A DNA stretch of 64,000 nt from Comamonas antarctica (GTDB lineage: Bacteria > Pseudomonadota > Gammaproteobacteria > Burkholderiales > Burkholderiaceae_C): positions 1,192,001 to 1,256,000 of the forward strand of contig NZ_CP054840.1 in assembly GCF_013363755.1 (NCBI RefSeq). The letters run 5' to 3'. Positions within the stretch are counted from its first letter, which is position 1, and each line of letters opens with the position of its first letter. Below, piece after piece: positions 32,204-39,042 of the stretch. The position numbers were made by a program, and so were the translations under genes. The notes beneath the pieces are model-generated. The model had not been told where the DNA came from. It saw nothing but the letters and a program-made list of their open reading frames with translations, and did no database searches.

Positions 32204-32266
32204 GGTAGGGGGCAATAGGGAGGCAACGCAGAGCGCGTCGCAGTGGCAAGTATCATAGCTGTCGCT

Positions 32267-33676
32267 ATGAAAAAACCCCGCCCCCGCTCCGTAAGCACCG
32301 CCGCCGCGCAGGCCGATTCCGGCTTCAGCTACAGCCGTCCCTTCTTTGAAGACCTCGTGGACCGTGCCCTGGCGCATGCCAGGAAGCTTGGCGCCACCGA
32401 TGCCGGCGCCGAAGCCTCCGAAGGCTGCGGCCTGTCGGTGAGCGTGCGCAAGGGCGCGCTGGAGACCGTGGAGCGCAACCGCGACAAGTCGCTGGGCGTG
32501 ACCGTCTACCTGGGCAACCGGCGCGGCAATGCCAGCACCTCCGACTTCTCCGAAGCGGCCGTGGCGCAGACCGTGCAGGCCGCGTATGACATCGCGCGCT
32601 TCACGGCCGAGGATCCGACCGGCGGCCTGCCCGATCCCGCCGACATCGCCGAACCCGGCACCCATCGCGATCTGGACCTGTTCCATCCCTGGGACATCAC
32701 CAGCGAGGACGCGGCGGCCCTGGCCATGGAATGCGAAGCCGCGGCGCTCAAGACGCACAAGCGCATCACCAACAGCGAAGGCGCGGGCGTCTCCGTGCAG
32801 CAAAGCCATTTCTTCAGCGCCCATTCGAATGGTTTTCGCGGCGGCTATGCCAGCTCGCGCCACAGCCTGTCGGTCGCGCCCATCGCCTCGCTGCCGGGCC
32901 GCAATGCCGAGATGCAGCGCGACGCCTGGTACAGCTCGATGCGCGCCGCCTCCGAGCTGGCCTCGCCTGCCGAGGTCGGCCGCTACGCCGCGCAGCGCGC
33001 GCTGAGCCGCCTGGGCAGCCGCAAGATCCCAACCACCGAATGCCCGGTGCTGTTCGAGTCGACGCTGGCCGCGGGCCTGCTCGGCAGCTTCGTGCATGCG
33101 GTCAGCGGCGGCGCGCTCTACCGCAAGACCAGCTTCCTGGTGGACTCGCTGGGCAAGCCGGTATTCCCCAAGCACATCGACGTGCTGGAAGACCCGTTCA
33201 TCCTGCGCGGCAAGGGCAGCTCGCCGTTCGACGAGGAAGGCGTGCGCGTGCAGCCGCGCAAGGTCATCGACGCGGGCCGCGTGCAGGGCTACTTCCTGTC
33301 GAGCTACTCGGCGCGCAAGCTGGGCATGAAGACCACCGGCAATTCGGGCGGCTCGCACAACCTGGTCATGAGCTCGCGCCTCACGCGCGCCGGCGACGAC
33401 CTCGATGCGATGCTCAAGAAGCTCGGCACCGGCCTGTTCGTGATCGAACTCATGGGCCAGGGCGTCAATTACGTGACCGGCGACTATTCGCGCGGCGCGA
33501 GCGGCTTCTGGGTGGAGAACGGCGAGATTGCGTTTCCGGTGCACGAGATCACCATCGCCGGCAACCTCAAGACGATGTTCAAGGGCATCGAAGCCATTGG
33601 CGCCGATACCTACAACTACGGTGCCAAGACCGTGGGTTCGGTGCTGATCAACCGCATGAAGGTCGCGGGCAGCTGA
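32267..33676 (+). CDS. pmbA: Metalloprotease PmbA (TldE)
   Basis: A 469-residue member of the TldD/PmbA family. With TldD it forms a heterodimeric zinc protease that degrades unfolded peptides and matures some ribosomal peptides and CcdA; PmbA itself lacks the metal site. Typical are the N-terminal EASEGCGLSVSVRKG near 53-67, the VLFESTLAAGLLG stretch near 259 and the GQGVNYVTGDYSRGASGFWV motif near 396-415. The start is ATG 32267 (MKKPRPRS), 24 bases inside a GTG frame. tldD is not in the window. The unknown island begins right after its stop. Confidence 0.95.
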   Translation: MKKPRPRSVSTAAAQADSGFSYSRPFFEDLVDRALAHARKLGATDAGAEASEGCGLSVSVRKGALETVERNRDKSLGVTVYLGNRRGNASTSDFSEAAVAQTVQAAYDIARFTAEDPTGGLPDPADIAEPGTHRDLDLFHPWDITSEDAAALAMECEAAALKTHKRITNSEGAGVSVQQSHFFSAHSNGFRGGYASSRHSLSVAPIASLPGRNAEMQRDAWYSSMRAASELASPAEVGRYAAQRALSRLGSRKIPTTECPVLFESTLAAGLLGSFVHAVSGGALYRKTSFLVDSLGKPVFPKHIDVLEDPFILRGKGSSPFDEEGVRVQPRKVIDAGRVQGYFLSSYSARKLGMKTTGNSGGSHNLVMSSRLTRAGDDLDAMLKKLGTGLFVIELMGQGVNYVTGDYSRGASGFWVENGEIAFPVHEITIAGNLKTMFKGIEAIGADTYNYGAKTVGSVLINRMKVAGS

Positions 33677-33694
33677 AGCGCAGGCTGGCTCCCC

Positions 33695-34027
33695 TCATTG
33701 GATGTCCAGCGGAACGTAGCTGCCCAGACCTGCGTAGAAGCAGGCGAAGACCACCAGCAGCTGGCCGGTGACAGCCAAAAGCAGGTCAGGCGAACACCGG
33801 CCCATGTCGTGTGGCAGGGGTGGATCGCCGGCATCGCCCGCGGGCTCCGCCGGGTCGGCCCAGGCTTGCCACCCCGCGCCGTCTTCACCCGCGGGGTAGC
33901 CCAGGGTTTCATAGGAAGGCGGGGGCGACGTCTCGAAACCCCAGTCGAAGTCGAGGTCAACAGGATAGGGCGGCGCCCGGTCGGCGTAGCTGAGGACCGG
34001 GCCACTGGCGGTCGAGTTGTTCGGCAT
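33695..34027 (-). CDS. Small tail-anchored protein of unknown family (cassette copy 2, B gene)
   Basis: I do not recognise this 110-residue protein. It begins MPNNSTASG, has a Pro/Tyr/Asp-rich acidic central part with two proline-tyrosine motifs (APPYP near 18-22 and PPPSYETLGYP near 34-44), and ends in one hydrophobic segment at about 81-103 with a short polar tail, so it should sit in the membrane by its C-terminus. No signal peptide. AGGAGAC just before ATG 34027 is a strong ribosome-binding site. It follows the A-type gene by 57 bases and ends next to convergent pmbA. It is lower in GC than its neighbours. Possibly secreted, immunity-like or regulatory; nothing decides this. Confidence 0.6.
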   Translation of the reverse strand: MPNNSTASGPVLSYADRAPPYPVDLDFDWGFETSPPPSYETLGYPAGEDGAGWQAWADPAEPAGDAGDPPLPHDMGRCSPDLLLAVTGQLLVVFACFYAGLGSYVPLDIQ

Positions 34028-34084
34028 CCTGTCTCCTTGGGTAATTGAAAATCGGACGGTGTGGGTGCCCCTGGGCAGCGCTTG

Positions 34085-34531
34085 TCACATGGTGAACGGG
34101 TGGGTGTCCGCTGCCGCGTGGAATGCGAACAGCCCTGGAGCGCCGATGAGGCCGCTGCAGTTGAGCGATGCGATGGACTCCGGCGGCGACACAGTGCGGC
34201 CGGGCGATGCCTGAGCTGCGGCGCTTTCATCGCTGTCGTCCAGGGTGTAGACCAGATCCTGCGGGTCTTCCTGTGCCCCGAGCAGGGCTTTGGGCCTGTC
34301 GAGATGGAAGAAATCAAATACATCGGACCGGTGGTTGCTGCAGCCGCGCTCATGGTCGATGTAGTAGATGACCGGCAGCAGTCCGGGTATCTTGCCAATG
34401 CTCAACGAGGCGATTTTCGCGGGCCCGCCGCGGTGCTCGATATATTCGAGAATGATCTGGAGATTGAACTCGCTGAGTGCATCGACGGCGGGGGCATGGG
34501 GGTTTGCAGGGTTTTTGGCATTTCCAGGCAT
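34085..34531 (-). CDS. Unknown protein, paralogue of the 246-aa island protein (cassette copy 2, A gene)
   Basis: A 148-residue soluble protein with no recognised family. Its first 80 residues align with those of the 246-residue protein encoded at 35021-35761: KNPANPHAPAVD at 6-17 against KNPSNPYADAVD, and GLLPVIYYIDHERG near 50-63 against GLLDVYNYIQHERQ, followed by a conserved aspartate and an aromatic pair (FDFF/QDYF). After that the two differ: this one has an acidic stretch (LDDSDESAAAQ) and a Gly/Ala-rich end. ATG 34531 is chosen because it aligns with the paralogue; longer upstream starts exist. The agreement with the paralogue argues that this strand is coding. Confidence 0.62.
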   Translation of the reverse strand: MPGNAKNPANPHAPAVDALSEFNLQIILEYIEHRGGPAKIASLSIGKIPGLLPVIYYIDHERGCSNHRSDVFDFFHLDRPKALLGAQEDPQDLVYTLDDSDESAAAQASPGRTVSPPESIASLNCSGLIGAPGLFAFHAAADTHPFTM

Positions 34532-34739
34532 GGTGGTTGTCCGAAATGGTGAAGCAACGCTGGCAGCGCAAGGCCATGTGTGCATCGTCGCCATGCGTCG
34601 GTCCACGGGGTTCAAACGGTCTGCGCACACCCGCATCAATCTATCCCCCGGAAAACTGGTAGTCGGTAGGTGCAAGTCCGCTGTTTATCCCAGTAGGAGC
34701 TGCATGCCTGGCCTGCCATTGGCTGGCATGCAATACCGG

Positions 34740-34997
34740 TCAGCCCAGTGCTTCGTGAAGCAGCACGCCAATGCCAATGAGAATGCCGACGCCTGCGGTC
34801 ACCGCGGCTGCGAGGCTGGCGTCCCACACGGCCGGGCTGCCGTCAACGACCCACTGGAATTCGGCGGGAGGCGCCATGTCACAGATGACGATGTCCGGTA
34901 TTCCAGCGGGCGCAGACAACGTCGGATCGTTCAGATCTGGATGATTGCTTGCGTCCTGCAGATCCAGGGCGTGGAACTCGAGGGTATTGCGGGGCAT
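34740..34997 (-). CDS. Small tail-anchored protein of unknown family (cassette copy 1, B gene)
   Basis: An 85-residue protein without a recognised family. It starts MPRNTLEFHALDL, has an acidic central part with AGIPDIVICDMAPPAEFQW near 35-53 and ends in a hydrophobic, glycine-containing segment at about 62-82 (AAAVTAGVGILIGIGVLL), which should anchor it in the membrane. It lies 23 bases behind the A-type gene on the same strand, mirroring the arrangement in the second cassette. The 208 bases between it and the next gene hold an inverted repeat, GCATGCC/GGCATGC (34702-34731), but no classical terminator. Confidence 0.58.
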   Translation of the reverse strand: MPRNTLEFHALDLQDASNHPDLNDPTLSAPAGIPDIVICDMAPPAEFQWVVDGSPAVWDASLAAAVTAGVGILIGIGVLLHEALG

Positions 34998-35020
34998 GGC
35001 TGGTCTCGCGGGCAATGGCT

Positions 35021-35761
35021 TCAAAGATAGTACCCGCTCGAGAGCTCGGTCCAGAGTTGGAACGAGGAGGATGCGGCCTCCCATGCATCGTCGCCCCAGT
35101 GATCCTCAGCGTCCACGGCCACCACTTGATCCATCGCATCGGCATTGAGGTAGCGGTGTCCGTCCCAGAGGTAGCGCTCACCGAGGTAGATATCCTGCGC
35201 ACCTGGGTTGACATGCGCGTGAACCCCGGGTTGTTGCGCATGGCTTGGAGACGCCACGTTGATGACCACGGACGCGTGCGGCCCGGTGTTGAAGCTCAGG
35301 GTGACGGTGGGCGACGGCGCAGGTGGGGGCGTGGTATTTGCATCGGGTCCGGCGGCGTCGCTTGCATGGGGCGCCCAGTCCGAATAGATCGTGTCATTGA
35401 ACGAGTCCGAGTACGCGCTCAGCACCGAGAAGCTGCCTTGGTCGAAGGAAACGGACACCACTTGCTGCATCGAGAATTGATTGCTGCCATCTGTATCCCG
35501 GGCCGTGCTAGCGGGCGGAACAATGTTGAAGTAATCCTGCAGGTTGTCCGACGCGGGACTGATCTGCCTTTCATGCTGAATGTAGTTGTATACATCGAGC
35601 AAGCCATGTCGGATCGTCATGGAAAGAAGGCTGGTGAACTCCCCATCATTCTCATTGATATGCTCTTGAAGCTGGTTCAGCAGGAAGTGAAGATGCTGTG
35701 CGTCGATTTTGTCGACTGCATCAGCATAGGGGTTGCTTGGGTTTTTCGAAGGCTTCTTCAT
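35021..35761 (-). CDS. Unknown protein, 246 aa (cassette copy 1, A gene)
   Basis: Unrecognised. The 246-residue product starts MKKPSKNPSNPYADAVD and has a helical N-terminal domain to about 80 that it shares with the 148-residue protein at 34085-34531 (GLLDVYNYIQHERQ near 53-66). A beta-rich part follows (SMQQVVSVSFDQGSFSVLSAY near 97-117, TVTLSFNTGPHASVVINVAS near 151-170) separated by a Pro-rich linker (TTPPPAPSPT), and the end is rich in Asp, Trp and Tyr. No signal peptide or membrane segment. It is the first gene of the island transcript. GC is clearly below the window average, suggesting acquisition. The 303-codon frame on the other strand has no recognisable content. Confidence 0.62.
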   Translation of the reverse strand: MKKPSKNPSNPYADAVDKIDAQHLHFLLNQLQEHINENDGEFTSLLSMTIRHGLLDVYNYIQHERQISPASDNLQDYFNIVPPASTARDTDGSNQFSMQQVVSVSFDQGSFSVLSAYSDSFNDTIYSDWAPHASDAAGPDANTTPPPAPSPTVTLSFNTGPHASVVINVASPSHAQQPGVHAHVNPGAQDIYLGERYLWDGHRYLNADAMDQVVAVDAEDHWGDDAWEAASSSFQLWTELSSGYYL

Positions 35762-36022
35762 GAGGGCTTGTCGGCTTTACAGAAAAGGGAGGGCTCGTCC
35801 TGGCAATGGCTTTGTGCGTTGAATGCACACCATCAGATCCGTTGCGCTTGCTTCCCGTGATCGGATGGCAGGCGCTGGTAGATCCAGTGGAGACAGCCCA
35901 TGGCGTGTCAATTTGATAGTTTAATACTATTTGATTTGTTTGTCATTTAGTTTTTAACTAAGAGTTCTGTCTATGGTGCGAAACACAGGCAGCGCCAGGC
36001 CCCGCGCTGGACGGTAGAGGCA
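35762..36022. promoter_or_regulatory. AT-rich upstream region of the unknown island
   Basis: 261 bases without a gene. The section 35905-35965 is strikingly AT-rich and holds two perfect inverted repeats, ATAGT-TTAAT-ACTAT (35916-35930) and TTAGTT-TTT-AACTAA (35947-35961). Promoter activity toward the island is expected here, though no classical -35/-10 pair with correct spacing was found (a TTGACA lies at 35911-35906 on the reverse strand without a good -10). Confidence 0.45.
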
Positions 36023-36049
36023 TAAAAAAAGGAGCGCCATGCGCTCCTT
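36023..36049 (-). terminator. Terminator of rpsU-yqeY
   Basis: AAGGAGCGC (36029-36037) and GCGCTCCTT (36041-36049) pair around CAT; on the reverse strand seven T follow. It ends yqeY transcription before the unknown island. Confidence 0.93.
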
Positions 36050-36071: not shown

Positions 36072-36518
36072 TCAGCCAGCCAGCGCGGCCTTTACGGCAG
36101 CCGACACTTGGCCCATGTCGGCCTTGCCTGCAAGCTGGGTCTTGACCGCGCCCATGACCTTGCCCATGTCGCCCGGGCCCTTGGCGCCGAGTTCGGCGAC
36201 GATGGCCTGCACGGCGGCAGTGACTTCATCGGCCGTCATGCGCTGGGGCAGATAGACCTTGAGCACCTCGAGTTCGGCCTTTTCCTTGTCCACCAGGTCC
36301 TGGCGGTTCGCGGTCTCGAACGCGGCAATGCTGTCCTTGCGCTGCTTGATCAGCTTGTCGACGATGGCAATGATGGCCACGTCGTCCAGCACCACGCGCT
36401 CATCGACTTCCTTTTGTTTCATGGCCGCCAGCAGCATGCGGATGGTGCCCAGGCGCTCGCTGTCCTTGGCGCGCATGGCGGTCTTCATGTCGTCGGTGAT
36501 CTGGTCTTTGAGGCTCAT
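36072..36518 (-). CDS. yqeY: GatB/YqeY domain protein
   Basis: A 148-residue protein matching the YqeY family, which is related to the tail of the GatB amidotransferase subunit and may bind tRNA; its cellular role is unsettled. Typical segments are MSLKDQITDDMKTAMRAKD at 1-19, RLGTIRMLLAAMKQKE near 21-36 and the C-terminal MGKVMGAVKTQLAGKADMGQ near 119-138. It follows rpsU, the conserved order in many proteobacteria (rpsU-yqeY-dnaG-rpoD), but dnaG is missing here and a terminator follows. Confidence 0.95.
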   Translation of the reverse strand: MSLKDQITDDMKTAMRAKDSERLGTIRMLLAAMKQKEVDERVVLDDVAIIAIVDKLIKQRKDSIAAFETANRQDLVDKEKAELEVLKVYLPQRMTADEVTAAVQAIVAELGAKGPGDMGKVMGAVKTQLAGKADMGQVSAAVKAALAG

Positions 36519-38355: not shown

Positions 38356-38853
38356 ATGAACCTACCTGCACACCAGCTCAGCATGACCGTGCTGATGTCG
38401 CCCGACATGGCCAACTTCTCCGGCAACGTGCATGGCGGCGCGATCCTCAAGCAGCTCGACCAGGTGGCCTACGCCTGCGCCAGCCGCTATGCGGGCCGCT
38501 ATGTCGTGACGCTGAGCGTGGACCAGGTGATGTTCCTGCAGCCCATCCATGTGGGCGAGCTGGTGACCTTTCTGGCCAGTGTCAACCATACCGGCACCTC
38601 GTCGATGGAAGTCGGCATCAAGGTGATTGCCGAGGACATCCGCAACCAGAGCGTGCGCCACGTCAACAGCTGCTTCTTCACCATGGTCGCCGTGGACGAT
38701 GACCGCAAGACCGTTCCGGTTCCTCCGCTCAAGCCCGCCAATTACGACGAACGCCGCCGCTGGGGCGCGGCCGTGCTGCGCAAGCAGATCCGCAAGGAGC
38801 AGGCCGAGCGCTTCGAACAGGTGCGCCAGGCAGCGGCGGCCGAGACCGTCTGA
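38356..38853 (+). CDS. Acyl-CoA thioesterase, hotdog fold (YciA/BACH-like)
   Basis: A 165-residue hotdog-fold thioesterase that hydrolyses acyl-CoA to free CoA and acid. The conserved segments are MANFSGNVHGGAILKQLDQV near 19-38 (Asn/His-Gly-Gly as in BACH and YciA), YVVTLSVDQVMFLQPIHVGE and the VNSCFFTMVAVD strand near 104-115. The chain is of single-domain length, and the C-terminal helix is basic and charged. ATG 38356 is the family start. It converges on cobA with the 43-bp repeat array between. Confidence 0.92.
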   Translation: MNLPAHQLSMTVLMSPDMANFSGNVHGGAILKQLDQVAYACASRYAGRYVVTLSVDQVMFLQPIHVGELVTFLASVNHTGTSSMEVGIKVIAEDIRNQSVRHVNSCFFTMVAVDDDRKTVPVPPLKPANYDERRRWGAAVLRKQIRKEQAERFEQVRQAAAAETV

Positions 38854-38870
38854 CACCGCCTCGCCCTTTG

Positions 38871-39042
38871 AATCCGTTCGTGCTGAGCCTATCGAAGCAC
38901 GGACGGCTCTCCCAATCCGTTCGTGCTGGGCCTGTCGAAGCACGGACGGCTCTCCGAATCCGTTCGTGCTGGGCCTGTCGAAGCCTGGACGGCCTCTCGA
39001 ATCCGTTCGTGCTGAGCCTGTCGAAGCATGGACGGGCTCCCA
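38871..39042. repeat. Tandem array of four 43-bp hairpin repeats
   Basis: Four units of exactly 43 bp start at 38871, 38914, 38957 and 39000, each beginning AATCCGTTCGTGCT. Within a unit CCGTTCGTGCT can pair with AGCACGGACGG (10 of 11), loop about 11, so each can form a hairpin. Units differ at a few positions. The array lies between the convergent thioesterase and cobA genes. Related single units occur at 29019 and 61386. Confidence 0.92.

Follow-up and report, generated by a model that had tools for sequence, protein, structure and literature searches.

The four small reverse-strand genes between pmbA and yqeY of Comamonas antarctica raise the question of whether they are two copies of one unit, each made of a soluble protein (A, A') and a small membrane protein (B, B'), as the original prediction had it, or whether this regular layout deceives. 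We analysed them in a window of 64 kb, which is the whole stretch of DNA under study (1192001-1256000 of contig C1, 4.2 Mb, in a genome of 5.03 Mb), and delineated the following features.

33677..36020, no strand: island of low GC, inserted between pmbA and the terminator of yqeY, delimited by similarity breaks, by GC content and by the gap of about 85 bp in congener G009
35021..35761, reverse strand: A, 246 aa, with a helical N-terminal module (about residues 1-84) and then a low-confidence acidic tail
34740..34997, reverse strand: B, 85 aa, pI 4.1, with a hydrophobic C-terminal segment at residues 62-80
34085..34531, reverse strand: A', 148 aa, with the same N-terminal module as A
33695..34027, reverse strand: B', 110 aa, pI 4.1, with a hydrophobic C-terminal segment at residues 83-101
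32243..33676, forward strand: pmbA (TldE), conserved left flank (Pfam PF19289/PF19290/PF01523)
36072..36518, reverse strand: yqeY, conserved right flank (Pfam PF09424)
36029..36049, reverse strand: terminator-like hairpin of yqeY, bounding the island on its upstream side (such sites number 4 in the region, with 2.7 expected by chance)
35913..35946, reverse strand: AT-rich element with inverted ATAGT/ACTAT, a candidate operator upstream of A

The four consecutive reverse-strand ORFs are present with the predicted lengths of 246, 85, 148 and 110 aa, and their coordinates leave intergenic gaps of 23 bp (A-B), 208 bp (B-A') and 57 bp (A'-B'); among them, B' alone has a ribosome-binding sequence obvious by eye. 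With a codon model built on the window, the summed scores are positive for all four (A 45.7, B 27.0, A' 33.3 and B' 14.4) and negative for the four antisense ORFs compared. These scores provide mild coding support, since the training set took in A, B and A', B' falls just under the gene cut-off of 15, and some 150-nt stretches score about equally well in a forward frame. A better coding argument for A and A' is their homology, with 36% identity over residues 5-85 of A (E 6.2e-6 in a search of one genome) and an alignment score that is reached in none of 1000 shuffles, which bears out the predicted sharing of the first ~80 residues. The composition also agrees with what had been predicted and supports a low-GC insertion: GC content is 0.599 in the island versus 0.684 in the rest of the window, every equally GC-poor 2344-bp segment of the 64 kb overlaps the island, and third-position GC of the four genes is 0.70-0.79 compared with 0.82-0.93 for most of the genes listed in the window.

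We then compared the site with that of related genomes. DNA similarity between the window and the congeners G009, G026 and G038, the three among 29 other yqeY loci compared in which pmbA lies within the flank (the contig piece of G005 being too short to judge), ends at the end of pmbA and restarts at the yqeY terminator. The distance between the two flanking genes is about 85 bp in G009, ~620 bp in G026 and ~750 bp in G038, and in the latter two it contains a DUF305 (PF03713) gene, which occupies the same gap as the four-gene island but lies on the opposite strand and belongs to a different protein family. The island is an insertion, and its genes are found here in one bacterium, with the readable relatives having nothing or another gene at the site. 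Across these four genomes the pmbA-yqeY gap behaves as a small insertion hot spot, being nearly empty, occupied by a DUF305 gene or occupied by the four genes. A repeat search found no repeat at the island edges; the single direct-repeat pair with one copy in each flanking gene, 14 nt at 93% and located inside pmbA and yqeY, is taken as chance. None of the four proteins matches a mobile-element family in Pfam, NCBIfam or PHROGs, neither viral contigs nor plasmids contain a match for A, A' or B, phages contain none for A', and the island DNA has no match among plasmids and phages. We therefore rejected a phage- or plasmid-borne module on the basis of these searched sets. In the search for known RNA elements, the single match was a sub-threshold Leu_leader outside the island.

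Next, we examined the family to which A and A' belong. Among 5.8 billion proteins, A' has 11 matches, namely one 99% near-copy and ten outside proteins with 56-66% local identity across 72-97% of its length; A matches itself alone. The ten outside relatives, from public assemblies, probably come from metagenomes, judging by their short contigs (the longest is 41 kb). Because A' is closer to these proteins than to A (36%), the split between A and A' looks older than that between A' and its outside relatives. A profile of the A' family finds A at E 4.2e-11 in its own genome, and at E <= 10 there is no third copy. In the 11-protein alignment, 43 of the 44 invariant columns lie in the first 80 residues of A', and the tails diverge in both length and sequence, with the middle of A' being shorter than in five relatives of 194-230 aa and the five others measuring 140-145 aa. 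The N-termini are rich in S/T/N/P, a weak signal at the 75th to 100th percentile of 57 predicted genes. In predicted structures the N-terminal modules model fairly well and the tails poorly (mean pLDDT 62.6 for A' and 50.0 for A), and at E <= 0.001 there was no fold match for A' in the PDB or for A in a viral library, a second look at A giving no chain; the best PDB sequence match (E 1.1) is not significant. As originally stated, none of the four proteins falls into a recognised family, with sub-threshold matches alone in Pfam, NCBIfam and PHROGs and none in PADLOC, and chaperone and effector families of Pfam and NCBIfam gave no match. We did not use the sub-threshold matches of A' to BilQ (E 0.27) and phrog_9576 (E 0.25), that of A to phrog_7361 (E 0.63), or that of the outside relative P0009 to T3SS_HrpK1 (E 0.16, 12.0 bits versus a cut-off of 30.9).

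The module is also rare among related genomes. Searching with the A' profile returned the own genome alone at E <= 0.001, both in 399 genomes of the family (141 genera) and in 399 genomes of the order (158 genera), two partly overlapping draws with at most 8 candidates scored in the listed genomes. Pattern-based scans, in which near records may be missing, confirmed no relative in 84,980 species genomes and no A-module relative in viral contigs. A relaxed search of the genus (53 genomes) yielded one further A-type gene, in G038 (E 0.0102), encoding a protein of 328 aa with the N-terminus MPRNTNPHAKNPSNPYA. Over its own residues 9-77, this protein is 36% identical to A (pair E 5e-5, 0 of 1000 shuffles), and convincing similarity is confined to the N-terminal module; the weak matches of its C-terminal part to A (p 0.036) and of B to it (p 0.054) were not used. 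Its gene, with a third-position GC of 0.73, has an M20-peptidase gene on one side and a malic-enzyme gene on the other, and no B-like match was found beside it. Thus the A-type genes of the two genomes occupy unrelated sites, both of low third-position GC. A profile that included the G038 gene brought no credible addition, with 12 of the 53 genomes at E <= 10 and ten of these at E 0.35-1.63.

The second protein of each supposed unit behaves differently from the first. B and B' do have the predicted hydrophobic C-terminal stretches (19-residue hydropathy of 2.43 and 2.04, respectively). Their comparison by BLASTP gives 16.5 bits and E 0.042 in a single comparison, and 1000 shuffles place it at a marginal p of 0.049; on this alignment their kinship is not secure, and B and B' are not demonstrably related. 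Among 5.8 billion proteins, the sole match of B' is itself. For B, 30 of the 53 congeneric genomes, the own one included, contain matches at E <= 1, the best of which outside the own genome (E 0.028) is at chance level. Matches of B at E 0.004 and 0.007 in two loci were set aside as circular, since they come from a small database built from loci that had been fetched by the B search itself, and the sub-threshold library matches of B to FtsJ (E 0.042) and KWL1 (E 0.21) were likewise not used. The locus contains no direct repeat longer than 22 nt. Together with the marginal score of B and B', and with A' being nearer to outside proteins than to A, this speaks against a tandem duplication of an A-B unit, and we rejected the duplicated two-gene cassette: A and A' are homologous, and the homology of B and B' is not secure. 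Nor was the predicted pairing supported, as the A-type gene of G038, the one relative with a readable context, has no B-like match nearby, and B' has no detected relative though A' has ten.

Upstream of A, we identified an AT-rich palindromic element as a candidate operator from its sequence. It is common to the 250-bp stretches that precede A and the G038 gene, in opposite orientation, with an alignment score that none of 300 shuffles reaches, 42 comparisons having been made. Exact copies occur at just these two places among 119 sequences (1.28 Mb, own loci repeated), from which two places the motif had itself been derived. A search of 97 sequences with up to 4 mismatches also places it directly ahead of a BspR-type gene, at the type III secretion system (T3SS) locus of the own genome, and a single time in an Alcaligenes locus. 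The element overlaps the only sigma-70-like promoter site that the region contains, where chance alone would give 1.1. A GC-rich match upstream of A and A' (1 of 300 shuffles, among the 42 comparisons) was taken as chance. A and A' are probably under functional constraint, as ten outside proteins conserve the module strongly and the upstream element reappears with it in G038.

A possible exporter of such proteins is encoded in the same genome. The T3SS secretin profile is over its cut-off there and in none of 14 control genomes, and a Bordetella-type T3SS gene cluster lies at C1 3549.7-3571.4 kb, ~2.3 Mb from the island in contig coordinates, with SctV, SctN, SctC, SctJ, SctR and SctB over NCBIfam cut-offs within 60 kb around the secretin. 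Together with an ECF sigma factor, this region encodes an anti-sigma factor of the BspR type. Ten cluster proteins were scanned, of which two had no match at all, one of them seemingly Bsp22-like and the other translocator-like; by eye, we take two adjacent genes of the cluster to be Bsp22-like. The first Bsp22-like protein matches Bordetella and Achromobacter loci at 41-45%. The BspR-type anti-sigma factor is the first of two BspR-type proteins encoded there (L043:4801-5400 and L043:6050-6574, or C1 about 3572.8-3574.6 kb); it is over the NCBIfam cut-off for T3SS anti-sigma factors, the second shares 53% identity with it, and both genes have a perfect GGAACC-N14-GTTACT box upstream.

This box is carried by T3SS promoters of such loci, and with at most 1 mismatch it is found in 17 of 20 related loci (L060-L079), the three box-less loci belonging to Cohnella and Paenibacillus. 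The 64-kb window contains no GGAACC-N13-16-GTTACT with 2 or fewer mismatches, and the L054 stretch none with a spacer of 14-15 at the same tolerance; A and the G038 gene are both without it upstream. If A and A' are T3SS substrates, this sigma factor thus does not control them through this box. Genome-wide, there are 7 exact box sites and equally 7 of a reversed control pattern, which leaves the box alone at chance level. One of the exact sites, which may be chance, is on the second contig at C2:21184-21209.

Within the genus, the secretin matches at E <= 0.001 in all 53 congeners, and it exceeds the cut-off in five (G000, G005, G009, G026 and G038), with the other 48 under it. Both module-bearing species, the own one and G038, are among these five T3SS-positive genomes, and the other three show no module, one of which (G005) is 85% complete. 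With the own genome given, the chance of the second carrier falling among the other four T3SS genomes is 4 in 52. YqeY identity to the own genome is 94-97% in these four and at most 86% in the rest, and the co-occurrence of module and T3SS may only reflect kinship, since the five genomes are close relatives by this measure.

As the leading explanation, we tentatively read the island as an insertion with two members, A and A', of a small exported-protein family and two separate membrane-seeking proteins, B and B', a possibility that falls well short of being probable. A and A' belong to a very rare family whose members may leave the cell: the helical N-terminal module of ~80 residues would be the export and docking part, the fast-changing acidic tail would carry the variable function, and the Bordetella-type T3SS elsewhere on the same contig would be the likeliest exporter. 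B and B' would be separate proteins that insert by their tails, either delivered with A and A' or at work in the bacterial envelope. The closest known systems are the type III secretion substrates of the Bordetella bsc system, among them BteA with its N-terminal targeting domain (PMC7498569). The likeness lies in the presence of a bsc-type cluster in the same genome, in a helical N-terminal part joined to a variable remainder and in the distance from the secretion locus, which is 2.5 Mb for bteA in Bordetella (PMC7498569). The N-terminal domain of BteA has ~130 residues, compared with about 80 for the module, and in Bordetella bteA and part of the bsc locus are under the BtrS sigma factor (PMC7498569); unlike bsc effectors, A and A' have neither an effector-family match nor a BtrS-type box upstream. 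Exported proteins fit better than a fixed two-gene system because a constrained N-terminal module is joined to free-running tails, A-type genes lie at scattered low-GC sites, and within the genus they are confined to injectisome-bearing relatives. The missing sigma-factor box, the three T3SS-positive relatives without the module and the kinship of the carriers appear as the weak points. The ~2.3 Mb between island and T3SS locus and the lack of chaperone, effector and significant fold matches also count against this reading. Of the functions originally listed, that of an effector gains some support from the T3SS in the same genome, and no support was found for toxin-immunity.

Other readings draw on much of the same evidence. 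Lineage-restricted accessory genes, that is, young or fast-evolving cytoplasmic proteins that came with low-GC DNA and have no shared function and no export, would account for the near-absence of relatives, the low GC and low third-position GC, the large low-confidence parts of the predicted structures and the use of the insertion site by another gene (DUF305); we consider this only slightly less likely than export, with the conservation of the module in ten outside proteins and the recurrence of the upstream element in G038 arguing against it. The palindrome common to A and the G038 gene, the tight spacing of 23 bp between A and B and the hydrophobic C-termini of B and B' would instead suit regulatory or sensor pairs, in which A binds a partner via its helical module, B anchors the complex at the membrane and the palindrome controls expression. 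Such pairs seem distinctly unlikely given a G038 relative without a B-like neighbour, the insecure homology of B and B' and the isolation of B' as opposed to A'. Toxin-immunity or toxin-antitoxin pairs, with A as toxin and B as membrane immunity protein, match the layout and small size of the genes only, and are highly improbable: no toxin was matched in PADLOC, Pfam, NCBIfam or PHROGs, the single relative whose context is readable has its A-type gene without B, B' has no detected relatives, and the part common to A and A' is the N-terminus and not a C-terminal toxin domain.

The export reading has a more specific form, which we regard as speculative and rather improbable: the KNPxNPYA-type module would be a new export and docking domain of an undescribed family of bsc-type T3SS effectors in Acidovorax-related bacteria, outside the BtrS-type regulon and under its own palindromic operator, with B and B' as companion membrane-inserting effectors. 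A limited title-level literature search on bsc-type T3SS in Acidovorax and relatives found nothing on point among the titles listed, and to our knowledge substrates of this T3SS class outside Bordetella are hardly described. If the module is an export domain, it would offer a sequence handle for finding effectors of this class; otherwise the locus cleanly illustrates how an orphan island can present a deceptive pairing of genes.

Elsewhere in the window, at 38820-39034, we observed tandem units with 43-bp spacing and the sequence TTCGTGCTGAGCCTGTCGAAGC, which we presume to be REP-like.
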